From assembly GCA_020850595.1 (NCBI GenBank), contig JADZEK010000050.1, positions 1-64,000 on the forward strand: 64,000 nt of DNA, given 5' to 3'. How positions within the stretch are numbered: position 1 is the stretch's first letter; the number at the start of each line of letters is the position of its first letter. Source of the DNA: Anaerolineales bacterium (GTDB taxonomy: Bacteria > Chloroflexota > Anaerolineae > Anaerolineales > UBA6663). The notes beneath the pieces are model-generated. The model made no database searches. It saw only the letters and a program-made list of their open reading frames with translations, and was not told where the DNA came from. Of the stretch, positions 38,746-58,343 are shown piece by piece. The position numbers were made by a program, and so were the translations under genes.

Positions 38746-40239
38746 TTACCGCCCGCCCCAGCGGTAGACGACCATATTCTCGCCGCCCGCCGCGGGGCCA
38801 GCCACGCCGCCGCTGGTGTACACTACTTCGGCGCGCGCCGTCAATTGCGGGTACCATCCTGGAAAAGTCATCAGGTAGTCCGCGCCCGAGGCGTCGAGCC
38901 ATGCGGCCAGCTTTGCCTCGGCGCGCATGATCGGAATGACTTCCGGCGTTACCAGCCCCGCCAGGTCGAGCACCGGCCGCTCGCCAAAGTAACCCAGCGC
39001 GCCGATGTCATGCGCGGCAATCACCGCATCGTCTTCGGTGTTCAGGGCAATCCACTTGGCTGTGCGCACCATTTCGGTCTGAATGATCTGCACGTCCTGC
39101 GCGTAGGCTCGCGCCCCGAGCACCCAGAACGCCAGCGCCACTGCGCCTACCACGACCACCCAGGCACGGCCGGCCACGCGCCGCCAGGGCCGCCGGCTGT
39201 CGAGCCGCACCCAGCCCCCCAACCCGGCTGCGCCGACCGCCACCAGCACCGGCACCGTCGGCATCAGGTACCGGCCATGCTGATACGTCACCGGCAGCCG
39301 CAGAGCGTAGGCCCCAACCAGGGCCGCCACCCACACCAGCGCCAGCGCCGCCACCCAAGGGCGCTCGGGCCGCGGGCCTGGCAGGGCAGCGCGCCGCGGC
39401 GTTGGCTCGCGACGGTCAAAGAACACCAGCACCAGCCCCGGGGCGAGCACGGCCGTCACGCCGATGAAGGGCTGAACCGCCAACTGCGCCAGGCGCGTGG
39501 GCAGCGGGGTTTGCAGCAGCGCCGCGTATTCCGCTTGTTTGGCGTAGAGCGTGTTGGGCCACGCGCTACCGCCCACCAGCCAGTTGAAGCCCAGGTACGC
39601 CAGCACCAACCCGACGGCCACCAGCCCATTGAGCCAGAAGCGCGGCCAACGCCGCTCGCCGGGGACGAGCCAGCACAGCGGCAGCAGCGCCGGCAGCAGC
39701 AGGCCGTCGGGCCGCACCCACACGGCTAGCCCGGCGGCCAGCCCCGGCAGCGCCCAACGCGACCGCGGACCGCCGGCCAGCACCATCAGCGCCAGCGCCG
39801 CCATCAGCAGAGTTTCCATGCCGGAAGCGGCCGACCACACCGTGTGCCACTCGGCCACCACCAGCAGCCCCGCCGCCCAGGCCGCCGCGCGCGCCCGCGG
39901 CCGCAGCGCCAACACCAGTTGGTGCGCCAGCCAGGCCGTTGCCGCTAGCGTCAGCATCCCCAGGCCATAGGTCCACAGCAGCGGGTCGGCCCGCCACCAG
40001 TAGCCCAGCGCCAGCACCGCCGTCCACAACGGCGCAGTGGATCCGGCCGAGGGCTGGCCGGGCGCGAACGCAAATTCGCCGCGCCAGCCCAGGCTGCGCG
40101 CATAGACCTGATGAATCCAGGCGTCGTCGAGGGGGAAGCCCACCTCGCCCGCCTGCCGGCTGAACGCCACGTACAGGCCCGCCGACAGCACGGCCAGCGC
40201 CAGGTAGACCATCCAGGCTTGGGGTTGCCAGCGCGTCAC
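38746..40239 (-). CDS. Polytopic GT-C-like glycosyltransferase, DDA family
   Basis: 497 residues with about ten hydrophobic helices. The first periplasmic loop carries the acidic pair PLDDAWIHQVYARSL (about residues 36-50), the expected metal/lipid-phosphosugar site of GT-C enzymes. SGMET and VRPDG follow, then a C-terminal soluble part with AAHDIGALGYFGERPVLDLAGLVTPE. The gene at 53060 shares all these motifs, so they are paralogues. GT-C enzymes use polyprenyl-phosphate sugars at the outer face of the membrane. It overlaps the upstream membrane gene by 4 bases. The sugar and acceptor are unknown. Confidence 0.8.
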   Translation of the reverse strand: MTRWQPQAWMVYLALAVLSAGLYVAFSRQAGEVGFPLDDAWIHQVYARSLGWRGEFAFAPGQPSAGSTAPLWTAVLALGYWWRADPLLWTYGLGMLTLAATAWLAHQLVLALRPRARAAAWAAGLLVVAEWHTVWSAASGMETLLMAALALMVLAGGPRSRWALPGLAAGLAVWVRPDGLLLPALLPLCWLVPGERRWPRFWLNGLVAVGLVLAYLGFNWLVGGSAWPNTLYAKQAEYAALLQTPLPTRLAQLAVQPFIGVTAVLAPGLVLVFFDRREPTPRRAALPGPRPERPWVAALALVWVAALVGAYALRLPVTYQHGRYLMPTVPVLVAVGAAGLGGWVRLDSRRPWRRVAGRAWVVVVGAVALAFWVLGARAYAQDVQIIQTEMVRTAKWIALNTEDDAVIAAHDIGALGYFGERPVLDLAGLVTPEVIPIMRAEAKLAAWLDASGADYLMTFPGWYPQLTARAEVVYTSGGVAGPAAGGENMVVYRWGGR

Positions 40240-41894
40240 GGTTCGGTCATTCGCTCCAACACGTACAGCGGGACGCCGCCGCCGCCGTCCAGCGTGGCCC
40301 GCAGCGTTAACGCCGGGTCACCCTCCGGCGCGCCGTACAGCGCCTCCAGTTCCGCTGGGTGATTGGCTTCCAGGATCAGCCAGCGCGATCCAAAGCGCTG
40401 CATGGCGGCGAGCACGGCCGTGGCGCCGCCGCTCGCGTCGCTCGCGTCGCTCGGGATCACGATGGCGGCCTGCCCCGTCTGGTAGTACCACCCCGGTGGA
40501 TTGTTAACCGTCACCACGGGGCGCACGTCAGCGGCCGTCAGCCGGCCCGCAGCCGCATAGCCCGCGTCACGTCCCGCCCAGCCGGGCAGGCGCGGCACGG
40601 TCAGCAGGGCGGCCAGCGCCACGCTCGCGGCCACGAGCAACCCTGTGAACACCGGGCGCGAACGCTCGGGCCGCCAGTGCTTCCGCCGCCGCGCCGCGCC
40701 TTCCACGGCCGCGTCCAGCCCGGCCGCCATCACCGCCCAGCCGGCCGGCAGGAGCGCCACGCTGGAGTGGAAGAACCCGCCGCGCTCCCCGGGCAAGGTG
40801 AACACGAACGTCATCAGCGTGAACAGCGCCAGCGCATACAGGCCGGTCAGTTGCAGCAGCGGGTGCCGCCGCAGCCGCCAGGCCCCCCAGACGAGCAGCG
40901 GCAACCCGACCAGGTTGGTCTGCACCGCCGCGAACGAGGCCGCGTTGGTTTGCAGCGCCGCCCACTTGCGCGCCACGATCGCCGCCCATCCCGCCGCGAA
41001 GTACCGGGCCGCGGTCAGTTGCGCCGGGTTGAGCGTAAACAGTTCGTTGTAGTCCAGCAGCCAGGCCGTGCGCAGCCCGCCCGGGGGCAGCGGCGCGCCC
41101 GTCACCAACACGTTGCGGGCGAACCACGGCCCCAGCACCAGCAGGTAGCCCGTCACCAACATGACGGGCGGCCCCAGCCACTCGCGCGCGGGCGGCCCGC
41201 GCCAAGTGCGCCAATGGGCGGCGGCCCACCATAGGCCAATGACACCCGCCAGCAGCGCGCCATCGGCCCGGGTCAGGTGCGCCAACCCGGCCGCCACGCC
41301 CGCCGCGAACAGCCAGCGCCCGGCCCCAGCCCGCGCTTGCCCGGCCCGCCAGGCCGCCAGCAGCGCGCCCGACGCCGCCAGCCCAAACAGGGCGAACGCT
41401 TCGGTCGTCGGCCAATAGATCAGATAGTACGGGCTGAACAGCGTTAGCAGCGCGGCCGCCCAGCCATGCCGCCGGTTGCCCGTCAGCGCCTGCGCCACCG
41501 CATAGGCCAGCAGGGGCAGCCCGGCCGCCAGGGCAATGAACGGCGCCTGCGCCGCGCGAAACAGCGCCGCGTGTTCGAGCGGGCCGGCGGCCGCCTCCGC
41601 CAGCGCCATGAACGGCGCGGCCACCAGCGCGGGCAGCGGCATCCAATACAGGTGGCTCGGCCAGCGGTGCGCCGCGTCGGCCTCCGGCGTTGTCACGGCC
41701 AGGTAGTTCCATAGGTACGGCTCAGTGAAGCCCTCTCCGTGCGCCAACTGCACCGCGCTGTCGAAGTAGTAATAGGCATCGGTGTAACCGGGGTTCGTCA
41801 CCCAGCGCGCCACGACCAGGTTCACTGCCAGCCCGAGCACGAACAGCAGCACCAGGTCGCGCCGCGCATCAGCCCGCGGCCCCGTCGCTTTCAT
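40236..41894 (-). CDS. Polytopic GT39-like membrane protein, probable glycosyltransferase
   Basis: 552 residues from the ATG at 41894 (a GTG at 41927 is an alternative; a TAGAAT -10-like box overlaps that GTG, which argues for the later ATG). About ten membrane helices. The first extracytoplasmic loop has a TDAYYYFDSAVQLAHGEGF motif (about residues 38-56 from the ATG) with Asp near the site of other GT-C enzymes. The C-terminal domain of about 110 residues is soluble. It is the first gene of a two-gene operon with the DDA-family gene. Function is likely transfer of a sugar from a lipid carrier to a surface glycan or protein. Confidence 0.75.
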   Translation of the reverse strand: MKATGPRADARRDLVLLFVLGLAVNLVVARWVTNPGYTDAYYYFDSAVQLAHGEGFTEPYLWNYLAVTTPEADAAHRWPSHLYWMPLPALVAAPFMALAEAAAGPLEHAALFRAAQAPFIALAAGLPLLAYAVAQALTGNRRHGWAAALLTLFSPYYLIYWPTTEAFALFGLAASGALLAAWRAGQARAGAGRWLFAAGVAAGLAHLTRADGALLAGVIGLWWAAAHWRTWRGPPAREWLGPPVMLVTGYLLVLGPWFARNVLVTGAPLPPGGLRTAWLLDYNELFTLNPAQLTAARYFAAGWAAIVARKWAALQTNAASFAAVQTNLVGLPLLVWGAWRLRRHPLLQLTGLYALALFTLMTFVFTLPGERGGFFHSSVALLPAGWAVMAAGLDAAVEGAARRRKHWRPERSRPVFTGLLVAASVALAALLTVPRLPGWAGRDAGYAAAGRLTAADVRPVVTVNNPPGWYYQTGQAAIVIPSDASDASGGATAVLAAMQRFGSRWLILEANHPAELEALYGAPEGDPALTLRATLDGGGGVPLYVLERMTEP

Positions 41895-42157
41895 TGACAC
41901 CGAGCCAATCCTAACCACAACGGGCACATTCTAACCTGTTCCTAACTAAAGGGAATCCCCCAACGGAGTCATGCCTGTCCCAAATTGGCGCTTGTTGATG
42001 TCACAGTTTCTTTTCAGACTCATCGTATGCTCCTGAGCATGCATGCCCGTACCCGTTTATCGGCGCCGCCGGCCCGACCGCTCGGGTTGCCCGCCAGCCG
42101 CGCCGTCGCTCGCCTGGTAGCCGGGCGGACGCTGATGAAGAACGTCCGGCCGCGCCC

Positions 42158-42206
42158 CCTCCGACCTCGACCCTCTGACCTCTGACATCCGACCTCTACC
42201 CGCTAT
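42158..42206. repeat. Degenerate heptad tract, third locus
   Basis: Pyrimidine-rich 7-mers CCGACCT, CGACCCT, CTGACCT, CTGACAT, CCGACCT, CTACCCG run up to the stop codon region of the gene at 42196. They resemble the repeats at 10096-10153 and 26754-26815. The remaining spacer (41928-42157) is visibly less GC-rich in part and shows no gene. Confidence 0.6.
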
Positions 42207-43461
42207 CGTCCAGCCCCCGCCACAATCCCGCGCCTAGCTCCACCGCCCAGCCCACGAACAGTAGCGTCCGCAAAGGCACCGTGATCCAATAGCCCCACGC
42301 CAGCCCGCGCGCGAGCAAGATCGGCCACTCCAAAAAGCTCACCGCCGCCAGCGCCAGCGCCAACAGCAGGCCCTGGCGGTTGGGCTGCACCAGCAGGATG
42401 AGGGGCACGAGCATCTGCTGCCACTGCGGGCTCCAGCCCTTCGACCACAGCACAAACACCGCCCAGGTGAACGCGAACAGCGCCACCAGTTGTGCGTCGC
42501 TCAGCCCGCCGCTGCGCCGCGCCCGCCTCCACACGCGCAGCCACACCGCGCCGAAAGGCACGCCAAACACGCCGAGCGTCAGCCAGCCGGGCGCACGGCT
42601 CGGCGCGTGCTGCCAGCGCGTCGCCCAGGCCAGGTCGAAGTGCTGGCTCAGTGGCCCGAAGTTGCCGGTGATGGGCCGGCCCGCCGCGTCTTGCACGTTG
42701 CCGTCGAGCAGCGCCCACACGGTGGCATACGAACTCTTGGCTCCCTGAGCCGCCAGCGAGGCAGTGACCACGCTGGGCGCTCTAACATAGAAGGGCAGCA
42801 ACCCCGCCACTGCCACGCCTGCCGCCGCGAGAGTGAGCGCCACGCCGCGCTTGGGCGGGCGGGCCGCCCAGGCCGCGGGCAGCAGCAGCACCGGCACCAA
42901 TTTGGTCAGCGTCCCCAGGCCCACCGCCGCCCCTGCCCCCAGGTCGCGCCCCTCCAGCAGCAGGCACAGGCCCAACAGCATCCAGAACGTGGTCAGCCCG
43001 TCGAACGTCCACCAGCCCAAGATCAGCGGCGCAGGCAGCAGGGCGTACACCAGGGCCAGCCAACCCGCCGCCGTCGCGCCGTGCAGCCTGCGCCCCAGGC
43101 GGTAGACCAGCGCCAGGCTGCCCAGGTCGGCCAGCAGCAGCGCCAGCGTCAGCCCATAGGCATACGTGTGAAACGGCGGCAAGGCCCCCCGCCCCACCAC
43201 CGCCAGCACTGCGATGGAGAGGTACGGAAAGATCGGCGGGAACTCGTACCAGTAGTCGAGCAGCGGCAGGCACGGCCCCGCCCCGGCCGGGCAATGGCCC
43301 GCTACGCTCCACGCCGCCAGGTTGTAGTAATGCTGAAAGTCGCCATAGCGGAACAGCGCATCGGCGGGCAGCACCGCCAGCAGCCCCAGCCGCAGCGCCA
43401 GGAACAGCAGCGTCACGGTGCCAAACGTGGGTTGCACGAAGGTTGCGGGTTTGGTCGGCAT
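42196..43461 (-). CDS. Polytopic membrane protein, GT-C-like (PIG-M/GT87-like)
   Basis: 421 residues, about ten membrane helices. The start is set at the ATG at 43461 (MPTKPATFVQ), four bases after the upstream stop. The N-terminal loop holds YGDFQHYYNLAAWSV with an Asp near residue 41, the expected catalytic acid of mannosyltransferase-type GT-C enzymes. A long extracytoplasmic loop contains WYEFPPIFPYLS; a later WSKGWSPQWQQMLVPLILL recalls the alpha-mannosyltransferase (GT87/PimE-like) group. It is the last gene of the seven-gene minus-strand operon that starts at 53039. Confidence 0.7.
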   Translation of the reverse strand: MPTKPATFVQPTFGTVTLLFLALRLGLLAVLPADALFRYGDFQHYYNLAAWSVAGHCPAGAGPCLPLLDYWYEFPPIFPYLSIAVLAVVGRGALPPFHTYAYGLTLALLLADLGSLALVYRLGRRLHGATAAGWLALVYALLPAPLILGWWTFDGLTTFWMLLGLCLLLEGRDLGAGAAVGLGTLTKLVPVLLLPAAWAARPPKRGVALTLAAAGVAVAGLLPFYVRAPSVVTASLAAQGAKSSYATVWALLDGNVQDAAGRPITGNFGPLSQHFDLAWATRWQHAPSRAPGWLTLGVFGVPFGAVWLRVWRRARRSGGLSDAQLVALFAFTWAVFVLWSKGWSPQWQQMLVPLILLVQPNRQGLLLALALAAVSFLEWPILLARGLAWGYWITVPLRTLLFVGWAVELGAGLWRGLDDSG

Positions 43462-43465
43462 AGCT

Positions 43466-44743
43466 TCAGGGTAACGGGAGGGCCGCGCCGGTCGCGTCGA
43501 GCCGGCGGTCGCGGGCCTCGGCCGCTGGTACCAGCCAACGCCGCCCAAAGAGCAGCGCCAGCCCCAGCGCCACCGGCCAGGGGAAGAAGAGGATGGACTG
43601 CTCCTGGTTGCCGACCACCGTGGCCAGGTGCAGCCACCACTGGCCCACCAGCGCCACGGCCATCACGCCCGCCATCAGCCACCGCCCGGCGCGCCCGTGC
43701 CCGTCCAGCAGCGCGAACACCCACAAGATCGGCACCAGTTGAAGCACATAGTTGGTCGTGGCCGAACGCGGCACGATCAGGTTCGAGACCACCAGCGTCA
43801 CACCCAGCGCCCAAAAGAACTCGGCTCGGCTCTCTGGCCGCCGCGCCAGCGCCAGCCACCACGCCCACAGCAGCCAGCCCAGGCACAGCGCCGTGAGTGT
43901 CCACTCGCCCGGCACGCCGAGGCGGGGCACCCACTCGTGCGTCAGGACCCACACCGGACTTTGCCCCACCGTGTAGCCGGGGTACTGCGCCACACGCGCC
44001 GCGAAGTCGCCCAGCCACGAGGGCAGCGCCGCGAAGCTCGCCGCGCACAGCGCCGCCAGCAGTCCCACAAAACCGGCCACGAAGCGCCAGCGCCGCCGGG
44101 CAATCGCCCACAGCAGCAGGTAGGGCACCACCAGGAACACCAGCGTGGGCTTGACCGTCGCCAGCACCAGCGCCATGCCGGCCGCGGCGTTTCGCCCGCG
44201 CGCCAACAGCCAGAGCGCGCCGGCCAGCGAGAGGAAGCCCAGGATCGCCACCTGCCCCAAGATCACCCCACGCGACTGCGGGTAATCGAGCAGCGCCCAG
44301 GCGACCACCAGCGCCAGCCCGCCTAAGGTGGGCCGCCAGCGCAAGACGTTCAGCGTCAGCGCCACGCCCACCACCACCGCCGCTTGCAGCAGCGTCATGA
44401 AGATCGCGCGCGCCACGGCGTAGTCGAAGAGGATAAACGGCCCGAACACCATCACCGAGTAGAAAGGATAGGTCAGCCGCTGCAGGTCTTCACCCGGCCG
44501 CGCCGCCCGCCCATAAACGGCCTGCTGCGTGTACAGCGTGGCTGCATCTGAATAGGGGTTTAGCCCAAGCTTGAAGTACGCGGTGAAGGCGGTATAACGC
44601 GCCAGGAAGTCGTTGCCCCCCGGCACCGGCCTGGTGAAGTATTGCCAGGTGGCCCAGGTGTAGGCCGCCACCGCCACCGCCAGCAGCGCCGCCGCGATGA
44701 TGTTGGCGGTGCGCCGGTCAAGCCGCTGCGTTAACGAGGTCAT
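43466..44743 (-). CDS. GT87-family (DUF2029-like) membrane mannosyltransferase
   Basis: 425 residues. The ATG at 44743 overlaps the upstream stop by 4 bases (ATGA), which decides the start over an ORF that opens 21 bases earlier. About nine membrane helices. The first loop has the GT87 hallmark GGNDFLARYTAFTAYFKLGLNPYSD (about residues 42-66), with a catalytic Asp and an NPY motif. PimE, a member, uses polyprenyl-phosphate-mannose. The C-terminal tail is short and cytoplasmic or extracytoplasmic. It sits between the ligase-TPR gene and the GT-C-like gene in one operon. Confidence 0.85.
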   Translation of the reverse strand: MTSLTQRLDRRTANIIAAALLAVAVAAYTWATWQYFTRPVPGGNDFLARYTAFTAYFKLGLNPYSDAATLYTQQAVYGRAARPGEDLQRLTYPFYSVMVFGPFILFDYAVARAIFMTLLQAAVVVGVALTLNVLRWRPTLGGLALVVAWALLDYPQSRGVILGQVAILGFLSLAGALWLLARGRNAAAGMALVLATVKPTLVFLVVPYLLLWAIARRRWRFVAGFVGLLAALCAASFAALPSWLGDFAARVAQYPGYTVGQSPVWVLTHEWVPRLGVPGEWTLTALCLGWLLWAWWLALARRPESRAEFFWALGVTLVVSNLIVPRSATTNYVLQLVPILWVFALLDGHGRAGRWLMAGVMAVALVGQWWLHLATVVGNQEQSILFFPWPVALGLALLFGRRWLVPAAEARDRRLDATGAALPLP

Positions 44744-47199
44744 TGATCCACTTCCGTTGGACACGCGCCGGCCCCCGCTCGCGCCGTCGCCGCCGGCGAG
44801 TCTGGCGCGGCGGCCAGCGCGCGACAGTACCAGGCCTGCGCTTCATCGCCGCTGCTCAGGTCGCCCAGCGCCAGCAGCGCGGCGACCGCCTCGGCGTCGT
44901 AGTGTATGGCCTCCATCCCCGGCAGCAGGTCGGCGGCCAGGCTGGCGCGGTTGAACACATACCAACCGTAATCCGATTGACCATACTGCCCCACGCCAAA
45001 GGAGGTGGTGGCATCCAATAGATTAAGCCCGGCCTCGTACTCAGCGCGCGCTCCGGCCGAGTCGCCCGTGGCCGCCAGCACGCGCCCCAGCCCAAAACGC
45101 AGCCGCGCCGTCGTCTGCCCAGTCAATCCCGGCAGATACAGCGCCGTCCGGATAGCGCGCTCGGCCTCGACATAGCGCACGGCCTCGCCTTGCCCTACGA
45201 TTGCCAGCGCCAGCCCCAGGTAGCCGCCCGGCGCATCGCCGGTGGCCGCGGGCGCGAACAGAGCCATAGCGTGCGCGTAGTCTCCAGCTTGCAGCGCCGC
45301 CCAACCCTCATCCGAACCGCCCACCGGCTGCCAGGGCGTCGGGTTGCCCTGTTGCCAATCCGCCAGCGCCCACCGGCGCAGAGGCGTCGCCCGGAAGAAG
45401 TAAGCCGTGGCCCAGTCCGGCCGCAGCGTCAGGGCGGTAGCGTAGGCCTGCGCCGCGTCTGCGTCGCGCCCGGCCGCCTCATACAGGTGAGCCAGCGTGG
45501 CCACGAACGCCGGGGCGCGCGGGGCCGATGCGACCGCGCGCTCCAGCGCCGCGAGGCCGCCCGCCTGGTCGCCCGCCGCCCAGCGCAGCAGGCCGACATT
45601 GGCCCAGTTCGTCGCCAATGCCGGCTCCAGCGCCAGGCCGCGCCCGTAAGCCGCCAGCGCGGCCGCTAGTTCAGCCTCATCGCGCACCGCGCCGTCGGCC
45701 GCCAGCGCCGCTTGCCCGTGCGCGAACCCGGCTTGCAGCGCATAGAAGGCTTCGCGAGGGTCACGCGCCGCGGCCGTGTCCAGATCACGCGCCGCCGCGG
45801 GCCAGTCGCCCAGGTTGCCCGCCAACACGCCCGCATCGGCCGGCGCGTAGGCCCAGCCCGCCCAGCTCAGCGCCGCGGTGACGCCCACATAGCCCGCCGC
45901 AAGCACCCCGCCGCCCACGCGCCCCCACCCCGCCTTACGTGCCGGCGCCTCGTCCGCCGCGACCAACCCCGCCAGAGTCACCATGAGCACCACGATGGCC
46001 GGAAAGGTCTGCGGCGTGTCGAACAGGCTCGTCACGCCCAGCCCGGCGAGCGCCGCTAGATAGCCAGACAGCCACACCCGCGCCTGGCCCGCCGTGGTCT
46101 GCCAGCGCCGCCACGCCAGCCACGCGCCCGCGGCCAGGAGCGCCAGAAGCGCCGCCGCGCCCAACAGCCCGGCCTCGGCCGTGGTGTTCAGGTAGACGTT
46201 GTGCGCGTGCGCCAGCAGCACCTCCGGCGGCACCGAGTAGGCTGCGATGAAGGCCGTGCCGAATGTAAACGGCCCTGCGCCGGTAAGAGGATCAGCCCGC
46301 AGCATCCCCAGCGCCACGCTCCAAATGTAGTCGCGGCCCGCGTGGGTCGGATGTTGCGCCTGCCGGTAGAGCGCATACGCGCCGATGAGGATAACGATGA
46401 GCAGCGCGACCGCGGCCGCGCCGATCATCAGCGGCCGCCGCCGCACGCCGCGCCACGCCGCCGCGACCGTGGCGCGCCGGTCGAGGACCGTCAACAGCGC
46501 CAGCACCGCCAGCGCCGCGGCTGACCCTAGCCACCCGCTGCGCGAGGAGGTATAGAACACCAGCACCGCCGCCGCCAGCGCCCAGGCCGGCGCGATGAAG
46601 CGCGCCGCCCACCCGCGCGCGGCCAGCGCCGCCGCCAGCGCCAGCGGCAGCAGCAACGCGAAGAACGCCGCCACAAAGTTGGGGTGTCCCAGGAACGCGC
46701 GCAGCCGCAGCGTGGCGGGCGGCAGCAGCGCCCGGCCGTCAATGGCCCACCAGTCCGCGAACCAGCGCTCCAACTCCCACGCGCCAAAAAACAGGATGAA
46801 CGTCGCGGCAAACAGCATGGCCTTGACGAACAAGCTCGCGGGCCAGCCGGCGCGCCGCAGGTCTACCACGAGGTAATAGATCAAGACATACAGCGCCAGC
46901 AGCGCCGTCGCGCCAAAGCTGCGGCGCGGGTCCACTGAGGCTGCACTCGCCACCAGATAGGCCGCCAGCAGCGCCAGCAGCGGCAGGTCTAGCGCCGTCG
47001 CCGGCAAGGGCCGCCGCTTCAGCCAACGCCAGGCGAGCCACGCCGCGCCCACCAGCGCAATCAGCGCGGTGGTGGTGACGTTGAGCCGGTAGAGCACCAA
47101 CCCGTTGAACGTGCCGCCCAGCAGCACCACATAGGCCAGCGCCAAAAACAGCGCCGCCTCTCGGAGCAGGTAGCCCCAGCGCACGGGCGCAGCCCTCAT
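44740..47199 (-). CDS. O-antigen-ligase-like membrane protein fused to a TPR tail
   Basis: 819 residues. The first ~460 residues span about 12 membrane helices with the WaaL/Wzy_C-type features: SRSGWLG (about 222-228) and, in the large loop, GAGPFTFGTAF and AHAHNVYLNTTAEAGLLG with the key His. The last ~340 residues are TPR-like helical repeats (ALAAYGRGLALEPALATNWANVGLLRWA and others). They end with two motifs shared with the paralogue at 55923: a TPLRRWALADWQ-type block (about 605-616) and YGxxxxxWYVxxR...DLLP (about 739-760). Ligases of this class transfer lipid-linked glycan to a lipid or protein acceptor. It overlaps both neighbours by 4 bases. Confidence 0.85.
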   Translation of the reverse strand: MRAAPVRWGYLLREAALFLALAYVVLLGGTFNGLVLYRLNVTTTALIALVGAAWLAWRWLKRRPLPATALDLPLLALLAAYLVASAASVDPRRSFGATALLALYVLIYYLVVDLRRAGWPASLFVKAMLFAATFILFFGAWELERWFADWWAIDGRALLPPATLRLRAFLGHPNFVAAFFALLLPLALAAALAARGWAARFIAPAWALAAAVLVFYTSSRSGWLGSAAALAVLALLTVLDRRATVAAAWRGVRRRPLMIGAAAVALLIVILIGAYALYRQAQHPTHAGRDYIWSVALGMLRADPLTGAGPFTFGTAFIAAYSVPPEVLLAHAHNVYLNTTAEAGLLGAAALLALLAAGAWLAWRRWQTTAGQARVWLSGYLAALAGLGVTSLFDTPQTFPAIVVLMVTLAGLVAADEAPARKAGWGRVGGGVLAAGYVGVTAALSWAGWAYAPADAGVLAGNLGDWPAAARDLDTAAARDPREAFYALQAGFAHGQAALAADGAVRDEAELAAALAAYGRGLALEPALATNWANVGLLRWAAGDQAGGLAALERAVASAPRAPAFVATLAHLYEAAGRDADAAQAYATALTLRPDWATAYFFRATPLRRWALADWQQGNPTPWQPVGGSDEGWAALQAGDYAHAMALFAPAATGDAPGGYLGLALAIVGQGEAVRYVEAERAIRTALYLPGLTGQTTARLRFGLGRVLAATGDSAGARAEYEAGLNLLDATTSFGVGQYGQSDYGWYVFNRASLAADLLPGMEAIHYDAEAVAALLALGDLSSGDEAQAWYCRALAAAPDSPAATARAGAGACPTEVDQ

Positions 47200-50163: not shown

Positions 50164-51327
50164 TTAGCCGACAAAAAACCACAGCGCGTAGAGCGCGCTC
50201 AACCCGAGCAGCCCGGCGCTGCTGAATGTGAGATAGGCGAAACGCACGCGCCGCGTCTGCCGCGCCAGCCAGTCGCCCGCCGCGATGAAGGCGGGGAACA
50301 ACACCAGCACATAGCGCGCCAACGACTGCCAGGCAGCGGCCGTCAGGCTGTGCTTGCTCAGGTCAAACAGCAAATTGAGGCCGAAGTAGACCAGCCAGGC
50401 CCCGTTGCGCCAACGCGTCTGCCGGGCCATCACCAGCAACAGGCCGCCAAACACGATGGCGCTCGCCATGTCCAACACCGTCGGCAGGTCGGGCACGCGC
50501 AGCACCTGCGCCACGGCGTAGGACACCCCCCGCACCGGGTTCAGCAGTTCCACGCCGGAGTACGCGCGCAGCACCACGCCCATCGGCGGCCAGCCCTGCG
50601 CCTGCCGATAGACCAAGAAGGCCAGCCCGCCCCCTGCCGCCAGCGCCAGCCCCAGGCCCGCGCGCACCGCCAAGGCCGCCTTGCCGCCGGCCGCCCGCCA
50701 CTGAGTTACGGCCAGCCAGGCCAGGGCCGGCACGGTCAACAAACCTGGCCCGCGAGTCAAGGCCGCCAGGCCCGCCAGCGCCCCTGCCGCCGGCCAGCGC
50801 TCGCGCTCCGCCAGCACGAACGCCCACACTGTCAGGGCCAGGAACAGCGCTTCGGTGAACGGCGCCACCAGAAAGAGCGCCGTGGGGTAGACCGCCAGCG
50901 CCGTCGCCGCCCAGCGCCCCGCCGCCGGCCCGTAGTGGCGCTCGGCCAGCACGTGCACGCCCGCCAGCGCCGCCACCGCCGCCCCGGTGCTCACCAGCAA
51001 CCCGGCCGCCGTCACTGGCAACAGCTTCGCGGCCGCCCCCACCAGCGCCGGGTACAACGGATAGAACACCGTGTCGCCAACGCTTACGCCCGCATAGCCC
51101 ACGTCGGCCAGGGTCAGGTAATGTACGGCGTCCCACCGCACCCACATGTCGAGCGCCGCCTGCTGCCAGACGCTGCCCGCCCCAATGGGCAGGTAGGGCC
51201 GCAGCACCCACCACGCGCCCGCCAGCACCAGGCCTAGCGCCAGCCGCAGGCCGAGCACGCACAGCGCCGCCCACAGCCAGGCCGCCCACGGCCCCGCGCG
51301 TCCGTGGCGCGCCAGCCACGCTCTCAC
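50164..51327 (-). CDS. PIG-V-like membrane mannosyltransferase
   Basis: 387 residues, about eight membrane helices. The motif order WDAVHYLTLADVGY (about residues 64-77), FYPLYPALV and YPTALFLVAPFTEALFLALTVWAF is that of the GPI mannosyltransferase 2 (PIG-V) type, GT-C family. These enzymes use a polyprenyl/dolichyl-phosphate mannose donor. The GTG at 51327 overlaps the upstream stop by 4 bases. It is followed by the tandem paralogues. In bacteria such proteins act on surface lipid or protein glycans; the acceptor is not known here. Confidence 0.82.
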   Translation of the reverse strand: MRAWLARHGRAGPWAAWLWAALCVLGLRLALGLVLAGAWWVLRPYLPIGAGSVWQQAALDMWVRWDAVHYLTLADVGYAGVSVGDTVFYPLYPALVGAAAKLLPVTAAGLLVSTGAAVAALAGVHVLAERHYGPAAGRWAATALAVYPTALFLVAPFTEALFLALTVWAFVLAERERWPAAGALAGLAALTRGPGLLTVPALAWLAVTQWRAAGGKAALAVRAGLGLALAAGGGLAFLVYRQAQGWPPMGVVLRAYSGVELLNPVRGVSYAVAQVLRVPDLPTVLDMASAIVFGGLLLVMARQTRWRNGAWLVYFGLNLLFDLSKHSLTAAAWQSLARYVLVLFPAFIAAGDWLARQTRRVRFAYLTFSSAGLLGLSALYALWFFVG

Positions 51328-53039
51328 GGTTTGCAGCAGTCCGGTCCGAAGCTGAACTCATCCGGCGTCACGCGGCGCGACAGGCCATAGAAGACGTGAT
51401 AGTCACCGAACGCGCGCTCGGTGAAATCCACCCGCAGGCTGTGCAGCCCCGACCGAATCTGGCTGTCTAACTCGGGGTGCAGGGTGGTGATGTAGGCTAC
51501 GCGTGGGCTGGCGGCCACGGCCGCCTCGTAGGCGGGAATGCGGCTGTCGCGGTCGGTATAGCGGAAGTCCTCGTGGTACGGCAGCCGCGCCACGAATAGC
51601 AGATCTTCCTGGCTGGCAAAGGCCAGCGGGTACTCAACCCAATAATTGGTAAAGCCACGCGTCTCGCCCTGTGCCCGCAAGAATGCTATGAGCGCCGGCA
51701 GCGGCCGCGGGTCTACCCGCGCCACCGCATCAAACTGGGTCGTGAACCCAGGGGGGTAAGCCACGGCGGCCTGCACGTTGCCCCACCAGTAGAAGGCCAC
51801 CAGGCCTAGCGCCAGCAACTGCCCGAACCACTTGCGCCACACCGAGCGCCGCCCTTGCTGCCGCCGCCGCAGCCGGAACCAATGCAGCGTCTCGGCCATG
51901 AACAGCGCCACCGGCACGGTCAGCGGGAGGAAATAACGGCCGGAGGGGTCTGCGCCAAACGGCGAGAACACAAAGCCAAGAATGGTAAACAGCATGACGC
52001 CCGCCAACAGCCAGCGCCCCGGCGCGGCGGCGTCGCGCCGGGCGACCAGCCGCCGCAGCCCTACGCCCGTCGCGCCGATGTGCACGGCCAGCGCAAACGG
52101 CACCAGCGGCAGAGCCAGAAACGCGGCACCCCACGGCGGCCGCATCCCCCACACCACGGTTGGGCCAAACAACAGGAAGTTGAAGAGGTGGGCGAAAGCG
52201 GCGAAGACCAACACCGGTGACGAAGCGCCGCTGATCGCCGCGCCGGTTGTTTCCGCAAGGGTGAGGAGGCCATGGGTGGTGGTATACGCCAGCCACGGCG
52301 CCGCGCCCGCCGCCGCGCCCAGCCCGACCGCCAGGAGAATCCGTAGCAGCCGCGCCGACTGCCGCCCGGCCGCGATGGCGACGTAGATGAGCGCGGGCAG
52401 TGTGTAGGCCAGCGTGATCGGGAAAGTCCAAAACGCCAGCCCAGCCAACAGGCCAAACAGCGCCCAGCCCGCCCAGCCGCGCCCGCCCCGCCAGCGCCCG
52501 CCGGCGGCGGGCCGACCAATCGGCAGGTCGAGCGCTAGCCAGAGGAGCAAGTTGCCGAACAGCAGCGCTTCGCCATAGCCGCCCAGGGTCGCCGAGGTAT
52601 AGAGCGTGACCAGCACCGGGGGCACGACCATGAACAACACCGCCGCGCCCGCCAGCCATTGGCTGCGATAGATCTTCAACCCCAGCGCGTAGGTCGTCGC
52701 CACGGTGCCCAGGTACAGCGCCAACTGCACCAGCCGCATGGTCAACACCGTCTGGCCCAGCACGGCGAACGCCCCGGCTGTCAGCCAGGCGTCCAGGCTC
52801 CCCAGGTAGGCCTGCCCGTAAAAGAACACGGGCCGCTCGCCCTGCAAGATGTGCCGGGCCATCAACCCGACTACGGCTTCATCTGCGTTGAACGGCACGA
52901 CCCCCAGCCCTTCGAGGGTCAGCTTCAGCGCGGCGGCCAGCCCCAGGAGAGCCAGCAGCCGCCGCCAGTTCACCGCGCTTGAGGGGATTGCCCGTGTTTC
53001 AGCTATCATCATCGTTGGATATGCTGCCTGTTCTGACAC
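51324..53039 (-). CDS. Polytopic GT39-like glycosyltransferase
   Basis: 571 residues, about ten membrane helices. The first loop has VPFNADEAVVGLMARHILQGE (about 48-68), with an Asp-Glu pair typical of GT39/ArnT-like transferases, then FYGQAYLGSLDAWL. The C-terminal soluble segment ends near a Cys pair (PDCCKP). It is the first gene of the seven-gene minus operon. I kept the GTG at 53039 as start because a TATAGT box ends exactly six bases upstream; ATGs at 53012 and 53009 are alternatives. The acceptor is unknown. Confidence 0.8.
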   Translation of the reverse strand: MSEQAAYPTMMIAETRAIPSSAVNWRRLLALLGLAAALKLTLEGLGVVPFNADEAVVGLMARHILQGERPVFFYGQAYLGSLDAWLTAGAFAVLGQTVLTMRLVQLALYLGTVATTYALGLKIYRSQWLAGAAVLFMVVPPVLVTLYTSATLGGYGEALLFGNLLLWLALDLPIGRPAAGGRWRGGRGWAGWALFGLLAGLAFWTFPITLAYTLPALIYVAIAAGRQSARLLRILLAVGLGAAAGAAPWLAYTTTHGLLTLAETTGAAISGASSPVLVFAAFAHLFNFLLFGPTVVWGMRPPWGAAFLALPLVPFALAVHIGATGVGLRRLVARRDAAAPGRWLLAGVMLFTILGFVFSPFGADPSGRYFLPLTVPVALFMAETLHWFRLRRRQQGRRSVWRKWFGQLLALGLVAFYWWGNVQAAVAYPPGFTTQFDAVARVDPRPLPALIAFLRAQGETRGFTNYWVEYPLAFASQEDLLFVARLPYHEDFRYTDRDSRIPAYEAAVAASPRVAYITTLHPELDSQIRSGLHSLRVDFTERAFGDYHVFYGLSRRVTPDEFSFGPDCCKP

Positions 53040-53045
53040 GCGCCG

Positions 53046-53053: not shown

Positions 53054-53059
53054 GCGCCC

Positions 53060-54601
53060 ATGCTCCTCACCGGCCGCCTGCGCCGCCTGGCACCTGAGTG
53101 GCCCGTGCTGGCTGTCGCGGCGCTGGCGATTGGGGCGCGCCTGCTGCCCACGCCCCGCACGATAGACGATGCCTTCATTACTTTCCGCTATGCGCGCAAC
53201 CTGGTCGCAGGGGCGGGCTTTGTCTACAACCTGGGTGAGCGCGTCCTCGGCACGACCACACCGCTCTATACACTGCTGCTGGCCGCGCTGGCCGGCCTGT
53301 CTGGCAGCGAGAATTATCCTTGGCTTGCGCTTTTGGTCAATTCACTGGCTGATGCCCTCACGTGTGGGCTGCTCGCCGCGCTGGGCCGGCGGCTAACCGG
53401 CCGGCGCGCGGTGGGCCTGGCTGCCGCGCTGCTGTGGGCGGTCGCACCAATGAGCGTCACCTTTGCCATCGGCGGCATGGAGACCTCCGTCTGCATCCTC
53501 GGCCTGACGGCGACGGCGTGGGCTTATCTCACCGGCCGCCCGCGCTGGACGGCGGCGGCGGCGGCGCTCACGCTCCTCACCCGCCCCGATGCGGCCTTGC
53601 TCATCGCGCCGCTGCTGCTCGATTGGGTCGCGCGCAGCCTGCGCGCCCGCGCCATCCCCTGGGCCGCGGTCGGTCTATTCGCGGGCGTGCTCGCGCCCTG
53701 GGTGATCTTTGCGGTGTTGTACTTCGGCTCGCCCTGGCCCCATTCCCTCGCGGCCAAGGCGCTGGCCTATCGCCTGCAGCCCACCGAAGCTGCTGTGCGC
53801 CTGCTCCAACATTACGGCACGCCCTTCTTTGAGGATGCGCTCTGCGGGCCGCGCTGGCCGCTGGTCGGCGTGACGCTCTACCTCGCGCTCAGCATCATCG
53901 GCGGGCTGGCCATGATCCGGCGCGAACCCCGCGCCTGGCTCGTGGCGCTTTACCCCTGGCTGTACGGCGTGGTGTTCGCCGCCGCCAATCCACTCATCTT
54001 TCGCTGGTACCTCGCGCCGCCCCTGCCCTTCTATTACCTGACGATCCTGGCCGGTCTCAACGCGCTGGCGCATGACCTGGCGCGCGCCCTCCGGCTGCCG
54101 GCTGGGGCGGCGCGCGCGGGCTGGGGCCTGCCGGCGCTGGCGGCCTGCGCCTTGCTCCTCAACGGCTGGACGCTGCGGCCCGATCATGGCCCACAGTCGC
54201 CCGCGCCCAAGATGGCCTGGCACCAGTTGGAGTTGTACTACACCCGCCTGGGGCAAGAACTGGCCCGGCGTGTCACGCCGCGTACCGTCATCGCCGCGGG
54301 CGACGTCGGCGCGCTGGGCTATTACTCCAACGCCCGCATTCTAGATACGGTCGGCCTCATGTCGCCCGAGGCCACGGCCTATTACCCGCTGCCCGCCGAC
54401 CAATACGTCATCAACTATGCCATGCCCGCGCAACTAATCCTCGCGGCCCGGCCAGACTTCGTGGTGCTGCTGGAAGTCTATGGGCGGCGCAGCCTGCTGC
54501 CCGACCCAGATTTTCAGGCCGCGTATGCGCTGGAGCAGACGGCGCCGACCGACATCTACGGCAGCCGCGGCCTGCTCGTCTATCACCGGCGCAGCCCATG
54601 A
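53060..54601 (+). CDS. Polytopic GT-C-like glycosyltransferase, DDA family
   Basis: 513 residues, about ten membrane helices. First loop TIDDAFITFRYARNLVAGAGF (about residues 34-54) with the acidic pair; GGMET, LLTRPDAALL and the C-terminal AAGDVGALGYYSNARILDTVGLMSPE follow. The paralogue at 38746 shares all of these. Relatives include arabinofuranosyl- and mannosyltransferases of GT-C type. The start is set by the promoter: ATG at 53060 lies six bases from TATAAT. It begins a three-gene plus operon with 4-base overlaps. Confidence 0.82.
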   Translation: MLLTGRLRRLAPEWPVLAVAALAIGARLLPTPRTIDDAFITFRYARNLVAGAGFVYNLGERVLGTTTPLYTLLLAALAGLSGSENYPWLALLVNSLADALTCGLLAALGRRLTGRRAVGLAAALLWAVAPMSVTFAIGGMETSVCILGLTATAWAYLTGRPRWTAAAAALTLLTRPDAALLIAPLLLDWVARSLRARAIPWAAVGLFAGVLAPWVIFAVLYFGSPWPHSLAAKALAYRLQPTEAAVRLLQHYGTPFFEDALCGPRWPLVGVTLYLALSIIGGLAMIRREPRAWLVALYPWLYGVVFAAANPLIFRWYLAPPLPFYYLTILAGLNALAHDLARALRLPAGAARAGWGLPALAACALLLNGWTLRPDHGPQSPAPKMAWHQLELYYTRLGQELARRVTPRTVIAAGDVGALGYYSNARILDTVGLMSPEATAYYPLPADQYVINYAMPAQLILAARPDFVVLLEVYGRRSLLPDPDFQAAYALEQTAPTDIYGSRGLLVYHRRSP

Positions 54602-55926
54602 GCCGCGCGCGCCTCGTGGCCTGGGCGGCGGTGTGGCTGGTGTGGGGCGGGTATGCCGCTGCGCTGGTGGTCACTCTGCCGGGGGTGCCCTTTCATCCTG
54701 ACGAGAGCACGCACCTCTATCTCAGCCGCGACTTTGACGTGCTCTTCTGGCAGCATGACCCCGCTGGAGTCACCTGGCAGGCCGCGCCGGCCGCGCCGGA
54801 AGTGCGCCGCTATCGCCTGCTGGAAGCGCCGCTCTCGCGCTACCTGATCGGCCTGAGCCGCATACTGTCCGGCCAACACGCCGTCTTGCCGGCGGCGGAT
54901 TGGAACTGGTCGGCCGATTGGGCCGCCAACCTGACCGCCGGCGCGGTGCCCAGCCCCCAACTGCTTCTCGCCGCCCGCTTGCCCGCCGCGCTGGCGACGG
55001 CAGCGGGGGCGGTGTTCGTGTTCGTCGTCGCGCGCCAGGGCGGCGGCTGGGGTGCGGGCCTCAGCGCGGCGGCGCTCTACTGCGCTAACGGGCTGCTCTG
55101 GCTGCACGGCCGGCGGGCCATGAGCGAGGGGCCGGCTGTGCTGACCGTGCTGGTGGCCGTGTGGGTCATGCTGCGCTGGGGCCGACGGGTTGTCTGCGTC
55201 GGCGCGGCGGTGGCCGTAGCTGCGGCGGCCAAGCTCACCGGCCTGGCCCTGCTGCCCGCCGGTCTGACGGCCGCCGCCCTTGCGCCGCCGCGTTCGTGGC
55301 GCGCGGCCTTGCGCCGGGCTGGTGTGGCCGCCCTGGCTTGCGCCGCCGCCGGCTGGCTCTTGAACCCCGCGCTGTGGGCGGCCCCCGCCCTGGGCCTGGC
55401 TGCCATGCAGGCGGCCCGCGCCGACTTGCTGGCCGCGCAGGTCAGCGCCTTGCAAGCGGCGGGCGGCCCAGTGCTGACCGGGCCGGCGGAGCGCCTGGCC
55501 GCGCTGATCTACCAGCTCTTCTTCGCCCCGCTCGCCTACTGGGAACTCCCCAACTATGCCGCGGCCACCGCCGCAGCCGAGGCAGCCTACCAGGCGCGGC
55601 CGTGGCTCACGCTCTTTCATGCCGCGCCCGCGACCGCCAACCTGGCCCCGGGCGGCCTGCTGCTGGCAATGGCGCTGTTCGGCGCGGCGCTCGCCGCCTG
55701 GCAGTTACGGCCGCGGGCCGCCGCGCTGCCCGCTGGGCGCCGCCGCGCTCTGCTCGTGCTCGGCGTCGCCACGGGAGGGTTGCTGGCCGCCCTGCTGTTG
55801 GCGCCCATCGGCTGGCAGCGCTACTATGTGCCGCTGCTGCCGCTGATCTGTGTTTGGGCCGGGCTGGGCGTGGCCGGCGCAGCGCGGCCCATTGTCGCTC
55901 ACCTGCCCCCTGATCAACGCCGATGA
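54598..55926 (+). CDS. GT39-like membrane glycosyltransferase (PMT-like)
   Basis: 442 residues with about nine membrane helices. The first loop has PFHPDESTHLYLSRDFDV (about 37-54), Asp-Glu as in PMT/ArnT enzymes. A later EAPLSRYLIGLSRILSG block is typical of the family. The C-terminal extension is short. It overlaps both the upstream DDA gene (ATGA) and the downstream ligase gene by 4 bases, so the three are coupled. Donor is probably a polyprenyl-phosphate sugar; acceptor unknown. Confidence 0.8.
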   Translation: MSRARLVAWAAVWLVWGGYAAALVVTLPGVPFHPDESTHLYLSRDFDVLFWQHDPAGVTWQAAPAAPEVRRYRLLEAPLSRYLIGLSRILSGQHAVLPAADWNWSADWAANLTAGAVPSPQLLLAARLPAALATAAGAVFVFVVARQGGGWGAGLSAAALYCANGLLWLHGRRAMSEGPAVLTVLVAVWVMLRWGRRVVCVGAAVAVAAAAKLTGLALLPAGLTAAALAPPRSWRAALRRAGVAALACAAAGWLLNPALWAAPALGLAAMQAARADLLAAQVSALQAAGGPVLTGPAERLAALIYQLFFAPLAYWELPNYAAATAAAEAAYQARPWLTLFHAAPATANLAPGGLLLAMALFGAALAAWQLRPRAAALPAGRRRALLVLGVATGGLLAALLLAPIGWQRYYVPLLPLICVWAGLGVAGAARPIVAHLPPDQRR

Positions 55927-58343
55927 ACCCGGCCGCCGCGCCCACCCGATTGCGTCTGCTTTCGCCAGAAGGCCTCCGCCTGCTGCAGTTGGCGCTGACG
56001 CTGCTGGCGGCGCTCTATCTGCTGTTCGCCGGGGGCACCTTCGACGCCACGCTGCGTTATCGCGTCAAGCTGCTCAACTTCGCGGCCGGCCTGGCGCTGG
56101 CGGGGGCCTGGCTCCTCCTGCGTCGGCGGCAGCGCCGGCCGCTGGCGGCCTCCGGCCTGGAGGGGCCGCTCGTGCTCTTGGCCGCCAGCCAATGGCTGGC
56201 GGTGGCGACCTCCCTCCGCCCACGGCTCAGCCTGGAGTGGGCCGCGGGCTTACTGGCCTGGGTCGTCGCCTTCTGGCTGCTGCATGATGTGCTCGCCCGC
56301 GGCTGGCCGCGCCGCTACGTCTGGCAGGCGCTGATTGTGCTGGCTGCGCTGCTGGCGGGCCACGGCGTGCTGGCCGCGGCGCAGTGGTATGCGGGCTGGC
56401 TCGCGCTGGGGCAGCTCCCGCCCGTCACCTTCCGCTACGCCGGCCTGCTCGGTCACGCCAACCTCACCGCCTGCCTGCTCAACCTGCTGCTCCCGGTGGT
56501 GCTCGGCCACCTGCTGACGGTCACCCGGCGCGCTGGGCAGGCGGCGCTCGCGGTGTTAGCCGCGGCCATGCTGCTGACCGAGTTCCTGACTTCCTCGCGC
56601 GCGGGCTGGCTGGCCTGCGCCGCCACGCTGGGTGTCTTCGCGTTGCTGTGGGCGCTGCGGGGAGACCTGCGCCGCTACTGGCCCACCTGGCGCGCGCGCT
56701 GGCAGTCGCTAGGCCGCGTGGGGCAGGCCGCCGCCGCCCTGGGCGCGCTGGCAGCCGCGGCCGCGGCGGGCGCGCTCCTCCTCCGCCAGTCGCAGCACAT
56801 CACCCACGGCAGCCTGTTTCAGTCTCGCCAGGAGTTTTGGGGCGCGGCCTGGGCACTGTTCCGGTTGCAGCCGCTCACCGGCGCTGGGCCGGACTTGTTC
56901 CCCTGGTATTACACCGCCACCACCTCGGTGCCGCCCGGCTTCCTCGCGCCACATGCTCATAGCCTCGTCCTCCAGGTCCTCAGCGGCAGCGGCCTGGTAG
57001 GTGTGGCGGCGTTGGGCTGGCTGGCGGCCGCCGCAGCCCTGCGCCTGGCGCGGCAGTGGCACGCCGGCGGACGAGAACTACCGGTCGCTGGGGCGCTGGC
57101 CGGGCTGGCGGGCTTTGGCGTGCAGCATCTCTTCGATTATCTCCTCGGCACGCCGCTCACCTGGTGGTTGGTCATCGGGCTGGCCGCCCTGGTGCCGGCC
57201 CCCGCCGCGCCCGCCACTGAGCCGTCCGCGCGCCGCTTGCCGCTGTGGCTGCCCGGCCTCTTCACCTTAGTCGCCGCCGGAGTATTTGCCTTCGGGCTGC
57301 GCGGGGAGGCCCTCAATGAGGCCGGGCTGTCGCTCGCCGCCCGGGGTGATTGGGCCACGGCTGCCGGCCGGTTCCAGGCCGCCGCCCAGGCCGACCCCGC
57401 GCTGAGCGTGTATGCTCAATCCGCGGCCTTCGCCTACACCCGCGCCGGCGAGGTTGACCGCGCGCTGCCGCTGTGGTTGGCGGCGGCGCAAGCGGACCCG
57501 TATTGGGCCGTGCTGCCTGCAACGGTCGCCGTGCTCGCGCACGACGCAAGCTCGCTGGCGGCCGCCCAGGCCCTGGCCCCCAACAGCGACCTGCTGGCGC
57601 TGAACGCCGGCGCGCTGGCCGAGGCGCAGGGCGATGCTGAGGCGGCGCGCGCCGCCTACCGGCGGGCGTTGGGCTTGCGCCCGAGCAGCGCCGCCGCGTT
57701 GTTCTGGCAGCAGACCAGCTTGCGCCGGGCCGCCGTGAGCGAGTGGCAAACAACTCAACCGCCAGATACGTCCGCGCTGGCGCAAGGGGAGGCCGCGCTC
57801 GTCAACGGCGCGGCGGCTGAGGCGCGCAGTTGGTTCGAGCAGGCCCGCGCCGCCAACCCGGCCGACAACCGGCCCTATGCCGGGCTGGCGCGCGCCGCGT
57901 GGCTGGCCGGCGACCTGGCCCAGGCCCAGGCCGACGTTGAAGTCGGACTGCGCATTCCGGTGGCGAACGCGGCCGAGACGCTGTCGCTGCGCCTGCTGGC
58001 GGGCGAGCTTGCGGCCGCGGCGGGCGACCGGGCCGCCGCCCTCGCCGCCTACACCACCGTCTTCAGCGCCGTGAATGACTACACCTGCCTCGGCCCGGGG
58101 ACATATGGCTACCCGCAGCGCAGCTGGTATGTCTACCACCGCGCCGCGCTGCCGAGCGACCTCGTGCCGCAATTCGCCCGCGCCGACATCACGGCCGCGA
58201 TGGACGCCGACTTCGCTCAGTTAGCGGAATGGTATCGGGCGGAAGGCGACGCTGCGGCGGCCTGCCTGATCTTGGGGCGCGTGGCCGTCGAGGCCCCGCA
58301 GTCCATCAGCGGGGCGGCGTGGCGCGCAACGTGCGCGCCCTAA
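55923..58343 (+). CDS. O-antigen-ligase-like membrane protein fused to a TPR tail (second copy)
   Basis: 806 residues. The N-terminal ~440 residues have about 12 membrane helices with SSRAGWL (about 220-226), GAGPDLFPWYY and PHAHSLVLQVLSGSGLVG; the motif keeps the His of ligases. The rest is TPR-like (AARAAYRRALGLRPSSAAALFW and others). The two C-terminal motifs TSLRRAAVSEWQ (about 598-609) and YGYPQRSWYVYHRAAL...DLVP (about 732-748) match the copy at 44740. Same architecture on opposite strand arms points to a duplication. It ends 4 bases into the convergent WecG-like gene. Confidence 0.85.
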   Translation: MNPAAAPTRLRLLSPEGLRLLQLALTLLAALYLLFAGGTFDATLRYRVKLLNFAAGLALAGAWLLLRRRQRRPLAASGLEGPLVLLAASQWLAVATSLRPRLSLEWAAGLLAWVVAFWLLHDVLARGWPRRYVWQALIVLAALLAGHGVLAAAQWYAGWLALGQLPPVTFRYAGLLGHANLTACLLNLLLPVVLGHLLTVTRRAGQAALAVLAAAMLLTEFLTSSRAGWLACAATLGVFALLWALRGDLRRYWPTWRARWQSLGRVGQAAAALGALAAAAAAGALLLRQSQHITHGSLFQSRQEFWGAAWALFRLQPLTGAGPDLFPWYYTATTSVPPGFLAPHAHSLVLQVLSGSGLVGVAALGWLAAAAALRLARQWHAGGRELPVAGALAGLAGFGVQHLFDYLLGTPLTWWLVIGLAALVPAPAAPATEPSARRLPLWLPGLFTLVAAGVFAFGLRGEALNEAGLSLAARGDWATAAGRFQAAAQADPALSVYAQSAAFAYTRAGEVDRALPLWLAAAQADPYWAVLPATVAVLAHDASSLAAAQALAPNSDLLALNAGALAEAQGDAEAARAAYRRALGLRPSSAAALFWQQTSLRRAAVSEWQTTQPPDTSALAQGEAALVNGAAAEARSWFEQARAANPADNRPYAGLARAAWLAGDLAQAQADVEVGLRIPVANAAETLSLRLLAGELAAAAGDRAAALAAYTTVFSAVNDYTCLGPGTYGYPQRSWYVYHRAALPSDLVPQFARADITAAMDADFAQLAEWYRAEGDAAAACLILGRVAVEAPQSISGAAWRATCAP

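Follow-up and report, generated by a model that had tools for sequence, protein, structure and literature searches.

A kinase-linked locus for predicted GT-C glycosyltransferases, usually accompanied by Flp/Tad pilus genes, in Anaerolineae

Here, we describe an array of predicted membrane glycosyltransferase genes in an Anaerolineales bacterium and its tie, conserved among relatives, to a DegS-like histidine kinase (HK) and, usually, to a Flp/Tad pilus locus. The window, that is, the whole stretch of DNA analyzed, comprises bases 1-64000 of contig JADZEK010000050.1 (C50) of a metagenome-assembled genome (MAG) of 5.8 Mb that is 99% complete. From 38746 to 58343, the window holds a dense run of 12 polytopic genes, named g1 to g12, of which ten encode GT-C or GT-C-like proteins and two encode Wzy_C proteins. 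With moderate confidence, we interpret the array as this genome's form of an Anaerolineae locus, conserved and regulated, that serves the extracytoplasmic assembly of a glycan and is co-inherited with a Flp/Tad adhesion pilus. An initial annotation, made from the window's letters, had recognized the dense run and counted ten genes rather than 12. Linkage to the kinase and to the Tad locus, which is the strongest fact in the present analysis, was absent from it.

Gene order was compared across relatives, comprising locus neighborhoods and 80 named genome records. Most records are titled Anaerolineae, Anaerolineales, or Chloroflexi/Chloroflexota, with single records for Thermoflexales, Ardenticatenales, and Candidatus Aquidulcis; cultured members are Anaerolinea thermolimosa, Longilinea arvoryzae, Ornatilinea apprima, and Leptolinea tardivitalis. 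The recurrent order is g10, g9, g6, variable GT-C genes, g4, further variable GT-C genes, g2, g1, the regulator, the kinase, a Flp pilin gene, cpaB, tadZABC, comF, and hpf. Counting only loci with enough flanking sequence, HK is linked to g1 in 59 of 59 loci, g2 lies next to g1 in 68 of 70, g4 lies within 8 kb of g1 in 48 of 51, and tadA is linked to g1 in 41 of 53. A response regulator adjoins g1 in 51 of 70 loci. Other genes occur less regularly within 10 kb of g1 (g6 in 24/45 loci, g9 in 18/45, and g10 in 6/45). The gene-order comparison, which the initial annotation had proposed, shows that the block is not local: a core of g1, g2, and g4, often with g6, g9, and g10, is conserved through the order. 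Moreover, orthologs of g1, g2, and g4 hold their order at 40-50% protein identity. The control neighbor wecG, near g10, is kept in 2 of 10 loci. A phylum-wide sample of 121 genomes yielded g1 in 14, of which 12, including that of the window, belong to one order; relatives of the kinase occur in 34.

Co-occurrence, scored over 61 genomes, follows the same pattern. Specifically, HK and g1 are both present in 45 genomes, HK alone in three, g1 alone in none, and neither in 13; the latter 13 genomes also lack this type of TadA. In genomes in which the genes share a contig, g1 lies within 2.6 kb of HK in 41 of 41 cases, and tadA within 3.3 kb of HK in 33 of 33. The core is thus co-inherited with one type of Flp/Tad system, and so glycan and pilus probably share a program.

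The regulatory genes, which lie immediately downstream of g1, have the domains of a DegS/DegU pair (DegS sensor, HisKA_3, and LuxR-type regulator), and cpaB, tadZ, tadA, tadB, and tadC follow in the order of a Tad/Flp locus. Beyond tadC lie a ComF-like gene and another whose product has a ribosome hibernation factor (HPF) domain. Most relatives carry, between HK and cpaB, a Flp pilin gene whose product has about 48 residues, few of them Ser or Thr. Pattern scans of the window, including the 107-bp gap between cpaB and HK (36709-36815), revealed no Flp pilin, and the genome's pilin was not found in the stretches examined. The HK, LuxR-type regulator, ComF-like, and HPF-domain genes stand together at 29108-38564. 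In Bacillus, degSU, comF, and the hpf gene likewise lie in one region. It is possible that this grouping is an old gene neighborhood.

Predicted structures place two core proteins in the GT-C superfamily. AlphaFold2 models, built from the window and related loci only, have pLDDT values of 91 for g1 and 92 for g6. In Foldseek searches, both matched the GT-C transmembrane fold with probability 1.00, E values of 2e-8 to 1e-4, and TMq of about 0.5-0.6: g1 matched oligosaccharyltransferase STT3, ArnT, and AftB, and g6 matched STT3, DPY19, ArnT, and AftA. Given those TMq values, the superfamily is supported for g1 and g6, and no particular enzyme is. Acidic residues of the first extracytoplasmic loop are conserved in both families: D38 and D39 of g1 are invariant in 38 sequences, and in g6, D34 is present in 64 of 64 relatives and D32 in 56 of 64. 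The top matches of both proteins are STT3/PglB/AglB (E about 1e-8 to 1e-7), but a whole-genome search with the STT3 family PF02516 matched neither. Indeed, no window gene matched it, and the best score in the genome was 15.2 bits against a cut-off of 24.5. A canonical STT3 oligosaccharyltransferase is therefore rejected for the array. Pfam families above threshold are limited to PMT (g2), GT87 (g3 and g4), and Wzy_C (g5 and g12); the other seven array genes have none. The GT87-like label of the initial annotation holds, for two genes. Its PIG-V-like label for g8 and GT39-like labels for g9 and g11 derive from motifs seen by eye and were not borne out by Pfam: g8 has no match to PIG-V (GT76, PF04188) and g9 and g11 have no corresponding Pfam match, in each case at E<=5. 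Its broader proposal, extracytoplasmic GT-C assembly of a surface glycan in Chloroflexota, is consistent with the predicted folds, the families, and the organism (Anaerolineales and kin).

The notion is that the GT-C core (g1, g2, and g4, often with g6, g9, and g10) acts at the outer face of the cytoplasmic membrane, where it would take sugars from polyprenyl-phosphate carriers and extend or branch a surface glycan. The DegS-like kinase and, where present, the response regulator probably set core expression. Glycan and pilus probably serve one surface program, that of cell aggregation and adhesion. Lineage-specific extra GT-C genes between the core genes would vary the glycan. Among relatives, the GT-C genes found between g4 and g2 do vary strongly, and further inserts match PMT_2, GT87, or YfhO.

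Several points weigh against this interpretation. The source MAG has 9.6% contamination. P-values for co-occurrence over the 61 genomes ignore relatedness, which inflates them, and are not to be taken at face value. No regulator is present near g1 in 19 of 70 loci. In 12 of the 53 loci with enough flanking sequence, the Tad genes are not beside the kinase; in the Anaerolineaceae loci that were checked, Tad is found elsewhere and HK, g1, and g2 stay together. Finally, comF and hpf, probably unrelated housekeeping genes, are conserved alongside tadC within the same segment, and order alone is therefore no proof of shared function. These last genes suit an explanation in which GT-C genes simply accumulated beside an old degSU-like/tad/comF/hpf segment and form no common pathway. 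So do the variability of the g4-g2 interval and the abundance of such genes in this genome, which has 29 PMT_2 matches. We give that explanation little credence: g1, g2, and g4 keep their order despite their divergence, and the HK-g1 link survives where tad has separated. Moreover, most neighboring array genes overlap, by 4-83 bp, and the overlap of stop and start codons suggests cotranscription. At three junctions there is no overlap: g2 and g3 are separated by 268 bp, g7 and g8 by 9 bp, and the divergently oriented start codons of g9 and g10 by 20 bp; g1-g9 lie on the minus strand (transcription order g9 to g1) and g10-g12 on the plus strand.

The separated Tad genes also bear on a rival reading in which the Tad pilus is what the array glycosylates, with Flp or minor pilins as acceptors. 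Ten genomes from loci that lack Tad genes were searched, and nine hold a TadA of 62-75% identity elsewhere. In the separate Tad loci viewed (Longilinea, Anaerolinea, and Ornatilinea), hpf is present in all three and comF in two, and no array genes are nearby. The arrangement thus resolves into two units, a GT-C core with the kinase and a Tad locus with comF and hpf. Because the kinase link is firmer than the pilus link, we do not rank pilin glycosylation first and deem it unlikely, yet several observations favor it. The array, HK, flp, and cpaB-tadZABC are contiguous in most relatives, and HK, g1, and this TadA type are present or absent in nearly the same genomes. There is also a precedent: TfpW, a GT-C enzyme of Pseudomonas aeruginosa, modifies type IV pilin with polymers of D-arabinofuranose (PMC11841053; see also PMC11127046). 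The present locus resembles that system in the linkage of GT-C enzymes to a type IV-like pilus and in a possible pentofuranose donor pathway, but it has many GT-C genes and a Tad rather than a T4a pilus. Against pilus glycosylation stand the Anaerolineaceae, in which the pilus locus is separate and the GT-C core stays with HK. The short Flp pilin offers few Ser or Thr, and a single pilin would hardly seem to call for as many as ten GT-C genes. Tad loci of a second type supply a further counterpoint: by a simple transmembrane count, 15 of the 17 viewed have no GT-C neighbors, and GT-C genes as general Tad companions are accordingly rejected. The exceptions, G030 (C8, 119.9-136 kb) and G054 (C18, 62-75 kb), come from one genus and have DTDTW genes a few kilobases from the second-type Tad genes, without g1 or the kinase. 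Two genomes, G012 (C98) and G025 (C8), carry two tandem genes for TadA-type ATPases.

Which sugar the predicted core would use is hinted at by two matches. Residues 29-236 of g10 are similar to the AftB structure PDB 9dlf (E=2.3e-5), and g10 matches the AftB equivalog family NF041481 with E=7e-8 but at 30.9 bits, far below the cut-off of 1050. Elsewhere in the genome, a single protein scores as a decaprenyl-phosphate phosphoribosyltransferase (258.5 bits, cut-off 234; E=2.6e-42 to a solved enzyme). In principle, judging from this match, a polyprenyl-linked pentofuranose donor could be available to the organism, which, like the AftB similarity of g10, is in line with the glycan-assembly interpretation and also with glycosylation of the pilus. 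The gene lies on contig C160 at about 97.3 kb (L154 1150-2109), not on the array contig, and with contamination possible it is a lead only. A PMT_2-type GT-C gene lies about 7 kb from it. The arabinose-type sugar of the initial annotation thus gains some indirect backing. Precedents for pentofuranose transfer are mycobacterial arabinan, the GT136 systems, and TfpW on P. aeruginosa pili (PMC11127046, PMC11841053). With mycobacterial AftB/AftA and DPPR synthase, the present system has in common the GT-C fold, the g10-AftB sequence match, and the genomic phosphoribosyltransferase, although g10 falls well short of the equivalog score. With the three-component GT136 systems (PMC11127046), it shares the logic of a polyprenyl-phosphoribose synthase plus GT-C enzymes; here, in contrast, the synthase is on another contig. 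We speculate, at a low probability, that Anaerolineae have a dedicated, kinase-controlled GT-C system that attaches polyprenyl-linked pentoses to the Tad pilus or to the surface layer anchoring it, and that lineages diversify this system through exchange of GT-C genes and the gain of inactive partners such as g7.

Paralogy within the array was examined with blastp and with synonymous divergence (dS) by NG86. All three pairs named in the initial annotation are paralogous: g6/g7 (42% identity, E=1.7e-92), g5/g12 (34%, E=1.4e-52), and g1/g10, its DDA pair at 38746 and 53060 (30%, E=6e-9). Its ligase-TPR label suits g5/g12, in which Wzy_C is above cut-off in both members and the C-terminal half of g12 aligns with that of g5. 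As it stated, two pairs have members in opposite orientation (g1 and g5 minus, g10 and g12 plus). Its DTDTW label applies to g6 alone, for g7 reads HARVFSH at that position. Values of dS are 0.9-1.0 for all three pairs, with saturation limiting dating; thus, none of the pairs is recent. An inverted block duplication around 53.05 kb is ruled out by these values together with the separate conserved places that g1 and g10 keep in relatives. The promoter placed at 53.05 kb by the initial annotation was not recovered, as no sigma-70 consensus site was found there. A lone perfect TATAAT lies at 53048-53053, 6 bp upstream of the g10 ATG and without a spaced -35 element, a consensus match only. It is possible that a g10 promoter lies there, perhaps with leaderless transcription. 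Of 17 loci from relatives that contain g10, g9 is present in 13, and in 10 of these the two genes are divergent. In three Anaerolinea loci, g10, g9, and g6-type genes lie on one strand, with g10 not divergent, and the g6-type genes there fall into a clade of their own in the family tree.

The g7 gene departs from its family at the residues conserved elsewhere. It is the sole row of 66 without both D32 and D34 (H and R stand instead), and the conserved acidic loop residues expected of a GT-C enzyme are therefore absent. It also differs at four positions that show little or no variation among 64 relatives (R133W, H174D, R304Q, and D428A). The gene is not obviously decaying, because its frame is open, its third-position GC content (GC3) of 0.88 is like that of its neighbors, and its coding region has an 8-bp overlap with g6. 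In the g6/g7 tree, g7 groups with g6 and the f4 clade on a long branch (1.75), and neither its exact place nor the age of the duplication is fixed. The likeliest reading of this alignment is that g7 would be an inactive partner of g6, either a pseudoenzyme or a partner subunit. In the glycan-assembly interpretation, g7 arose in this genome by duplication of a g6-type gene and, with its acidic motif lost, can at most assist.

Because g7 has lost its motif, g6 and g7 are not two equal enzymes, which also counts against a model in which the array is a self-contained surface polysaccharide system, centered on its ligases and working with enzyme pairs in parallel. Two Wzy_C proteins do lie within the array. 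On the g12 side, wecG and further glycosyltransferase genes are followed by a polysaccharide cluster with a WbaP-type transferase, an ABC-2 exporter, and a Wzx-like flippase. The ligases, treated as central in the initial annotation, are nevertheless among the least conserved parts. Specifically, a g5/g12-type gene occurs in 3 of 112 relatives' loci that hold g1 or g6, and g5 relatives occur in 13 of 61 genomes; the ligase tree has few rows, and its branching is unresolved. In the nearest relative, G004, g5 comes directly after g9, with g6, g7, and g8 missing from between them, and no g12 lies between g11 and wecG. With ligases so scarce in loci that keep the core, we take them to be lineage additions, not key to the system, and we regard the ligase-centered model as distinctly unlikely. 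Like O-antigen ligases and PglL-type proteins, g5 and g12 have PF04932 matches and many predicted transmembrane helices; they differ from them by a C-terminal TPR-type region and are peripheral to the conserved locus. Under the glycan-assembly interpretation, the two added Wzy_C proteins would, in this genome, polymerize the glycan or transfer it to an acceptor.

Coordinates and supporting matches are given in Table 1. The TTG start of g3 overlaps g4 by 83 bp, and the true start is therefore probably internal. The g8 gene is rare among relatives' loci. No structured RNA or tRNA was found in the 64-kb window.

Table 1. Genes of the array and of the adjoining regulatory and Tad pilus locus
Gene	Description	Position	Strand	Support
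tadC		30683..31654	-	PF00482
tadB		31664..32656	-	PF00482
tadA/cpaF	ATPase	32696..34150	-	PF00437; best NCBIfam TIGR03819 TadA, slightly below cut-off
tadZ/cpaE-like		34190..35464	-	receiver and AAA_31 domains
cpaB		35599..36708	-	PF16976, PF08666; TIGR03177 just below cut-off
HK	DegS-like histidine kinase	36816..37862	-	PF07730; PF05384 DegS E=2e-9
Regulator	LuxR/NarL-type response regulator	37878..38564	-	PF00072, PF00196
g1	core GT-C (FPLDDAWIH family), adjoins regulator genes	38746..40239	-	AlphaFold2 model, invariant D38/D39, HK linkage
g2	core PMT-family GT-C	40236..41927	-	PF02366 25.3 bits (cut-off 22.7)
g3	GT87 enzyme	42196..43548	-	PF09594 41.9 bits (cut-off 25)
g4	core GT87 enzyme	43466..44764	-	PF09594 46.2 bits
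g5	Wzy_C (O-antigen ligase-like) with TPR, accessory	44740..47199	-	PF04932 70.2 bits (cut-off 31.7), TPR matches
g6	DxD (DTDTW) GT-C, motif intact	47196..48695	-	AlphaFold2 model, D34/D32 conservation
g7	g6 paralog, acidic motif lost	48688..50154	-	alignment of 66 rows
g8	polytopic GT-C-like, accessory, PIG-V-like motifs by eye	50164..51327	-	NF046093 weak, far below cut-off
g9	polytopic GT39-like, frequent core member	51324..53039	-	orthologs 37-52% identical in many loci
g10	AftB-like GT-C, divergent from g9	53060..54601	+	PDB 9dlf; NF041481 below cut-off
g11	polytopic GT39-like	54598..55926	+	orthologs beside g10/g9 in several relatives
g12	second Wzy_C protein, accessory	55923..58343	+	PF04932 48.3 bits (cut-off 31.7)

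Tad pili are a proposed aggregation factor of Anaerolinales, and a Tad cluster from these bacteria has been published (Xia et al. 2016, PMC4877987); Tad genes and pili have also been published for other Chloroflexota (PMC7332563, PMC13319060). The published Anaerolinales cluster has the same pilus genes (pilA/flp, cpaB, cpaE/tadZ, cpaF/tadA, tadB, and tadC). A term search of that report found no mention of glycosyltransferases, whereas a linked kinase and GT-C block is described here. Unlike the published cluster, the window's Tad copy has no pilin gene between HK and cpaB. Searches of the open-access literature turned up no account of a GT-C block linked to this kinase, and nothing direct on a Chloroflexi Tad pilus together with a glycosyltransferase or on glycosylation of Tad/Flp pilins. 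GT-C glycan loci are common; the kinase-linked, usually pilus-linked form is apparently undescribed.

The Chloroflexota envelope is poorly understood: cells stain Gram-negative, clear outer-membrane pathways are lacking, and polysaccharide or protein has been proposed as the material of its layers (PMC13319060). Pilus-based aggregation has been invoked to explain why Anaerolineae are prevalent in digesters (PMC4877987). A conserved GT-C locus tied to a kinase, and usually to a pilus, provides named genes with which the surface glycan may be probed, and cultured strains carry the locus.

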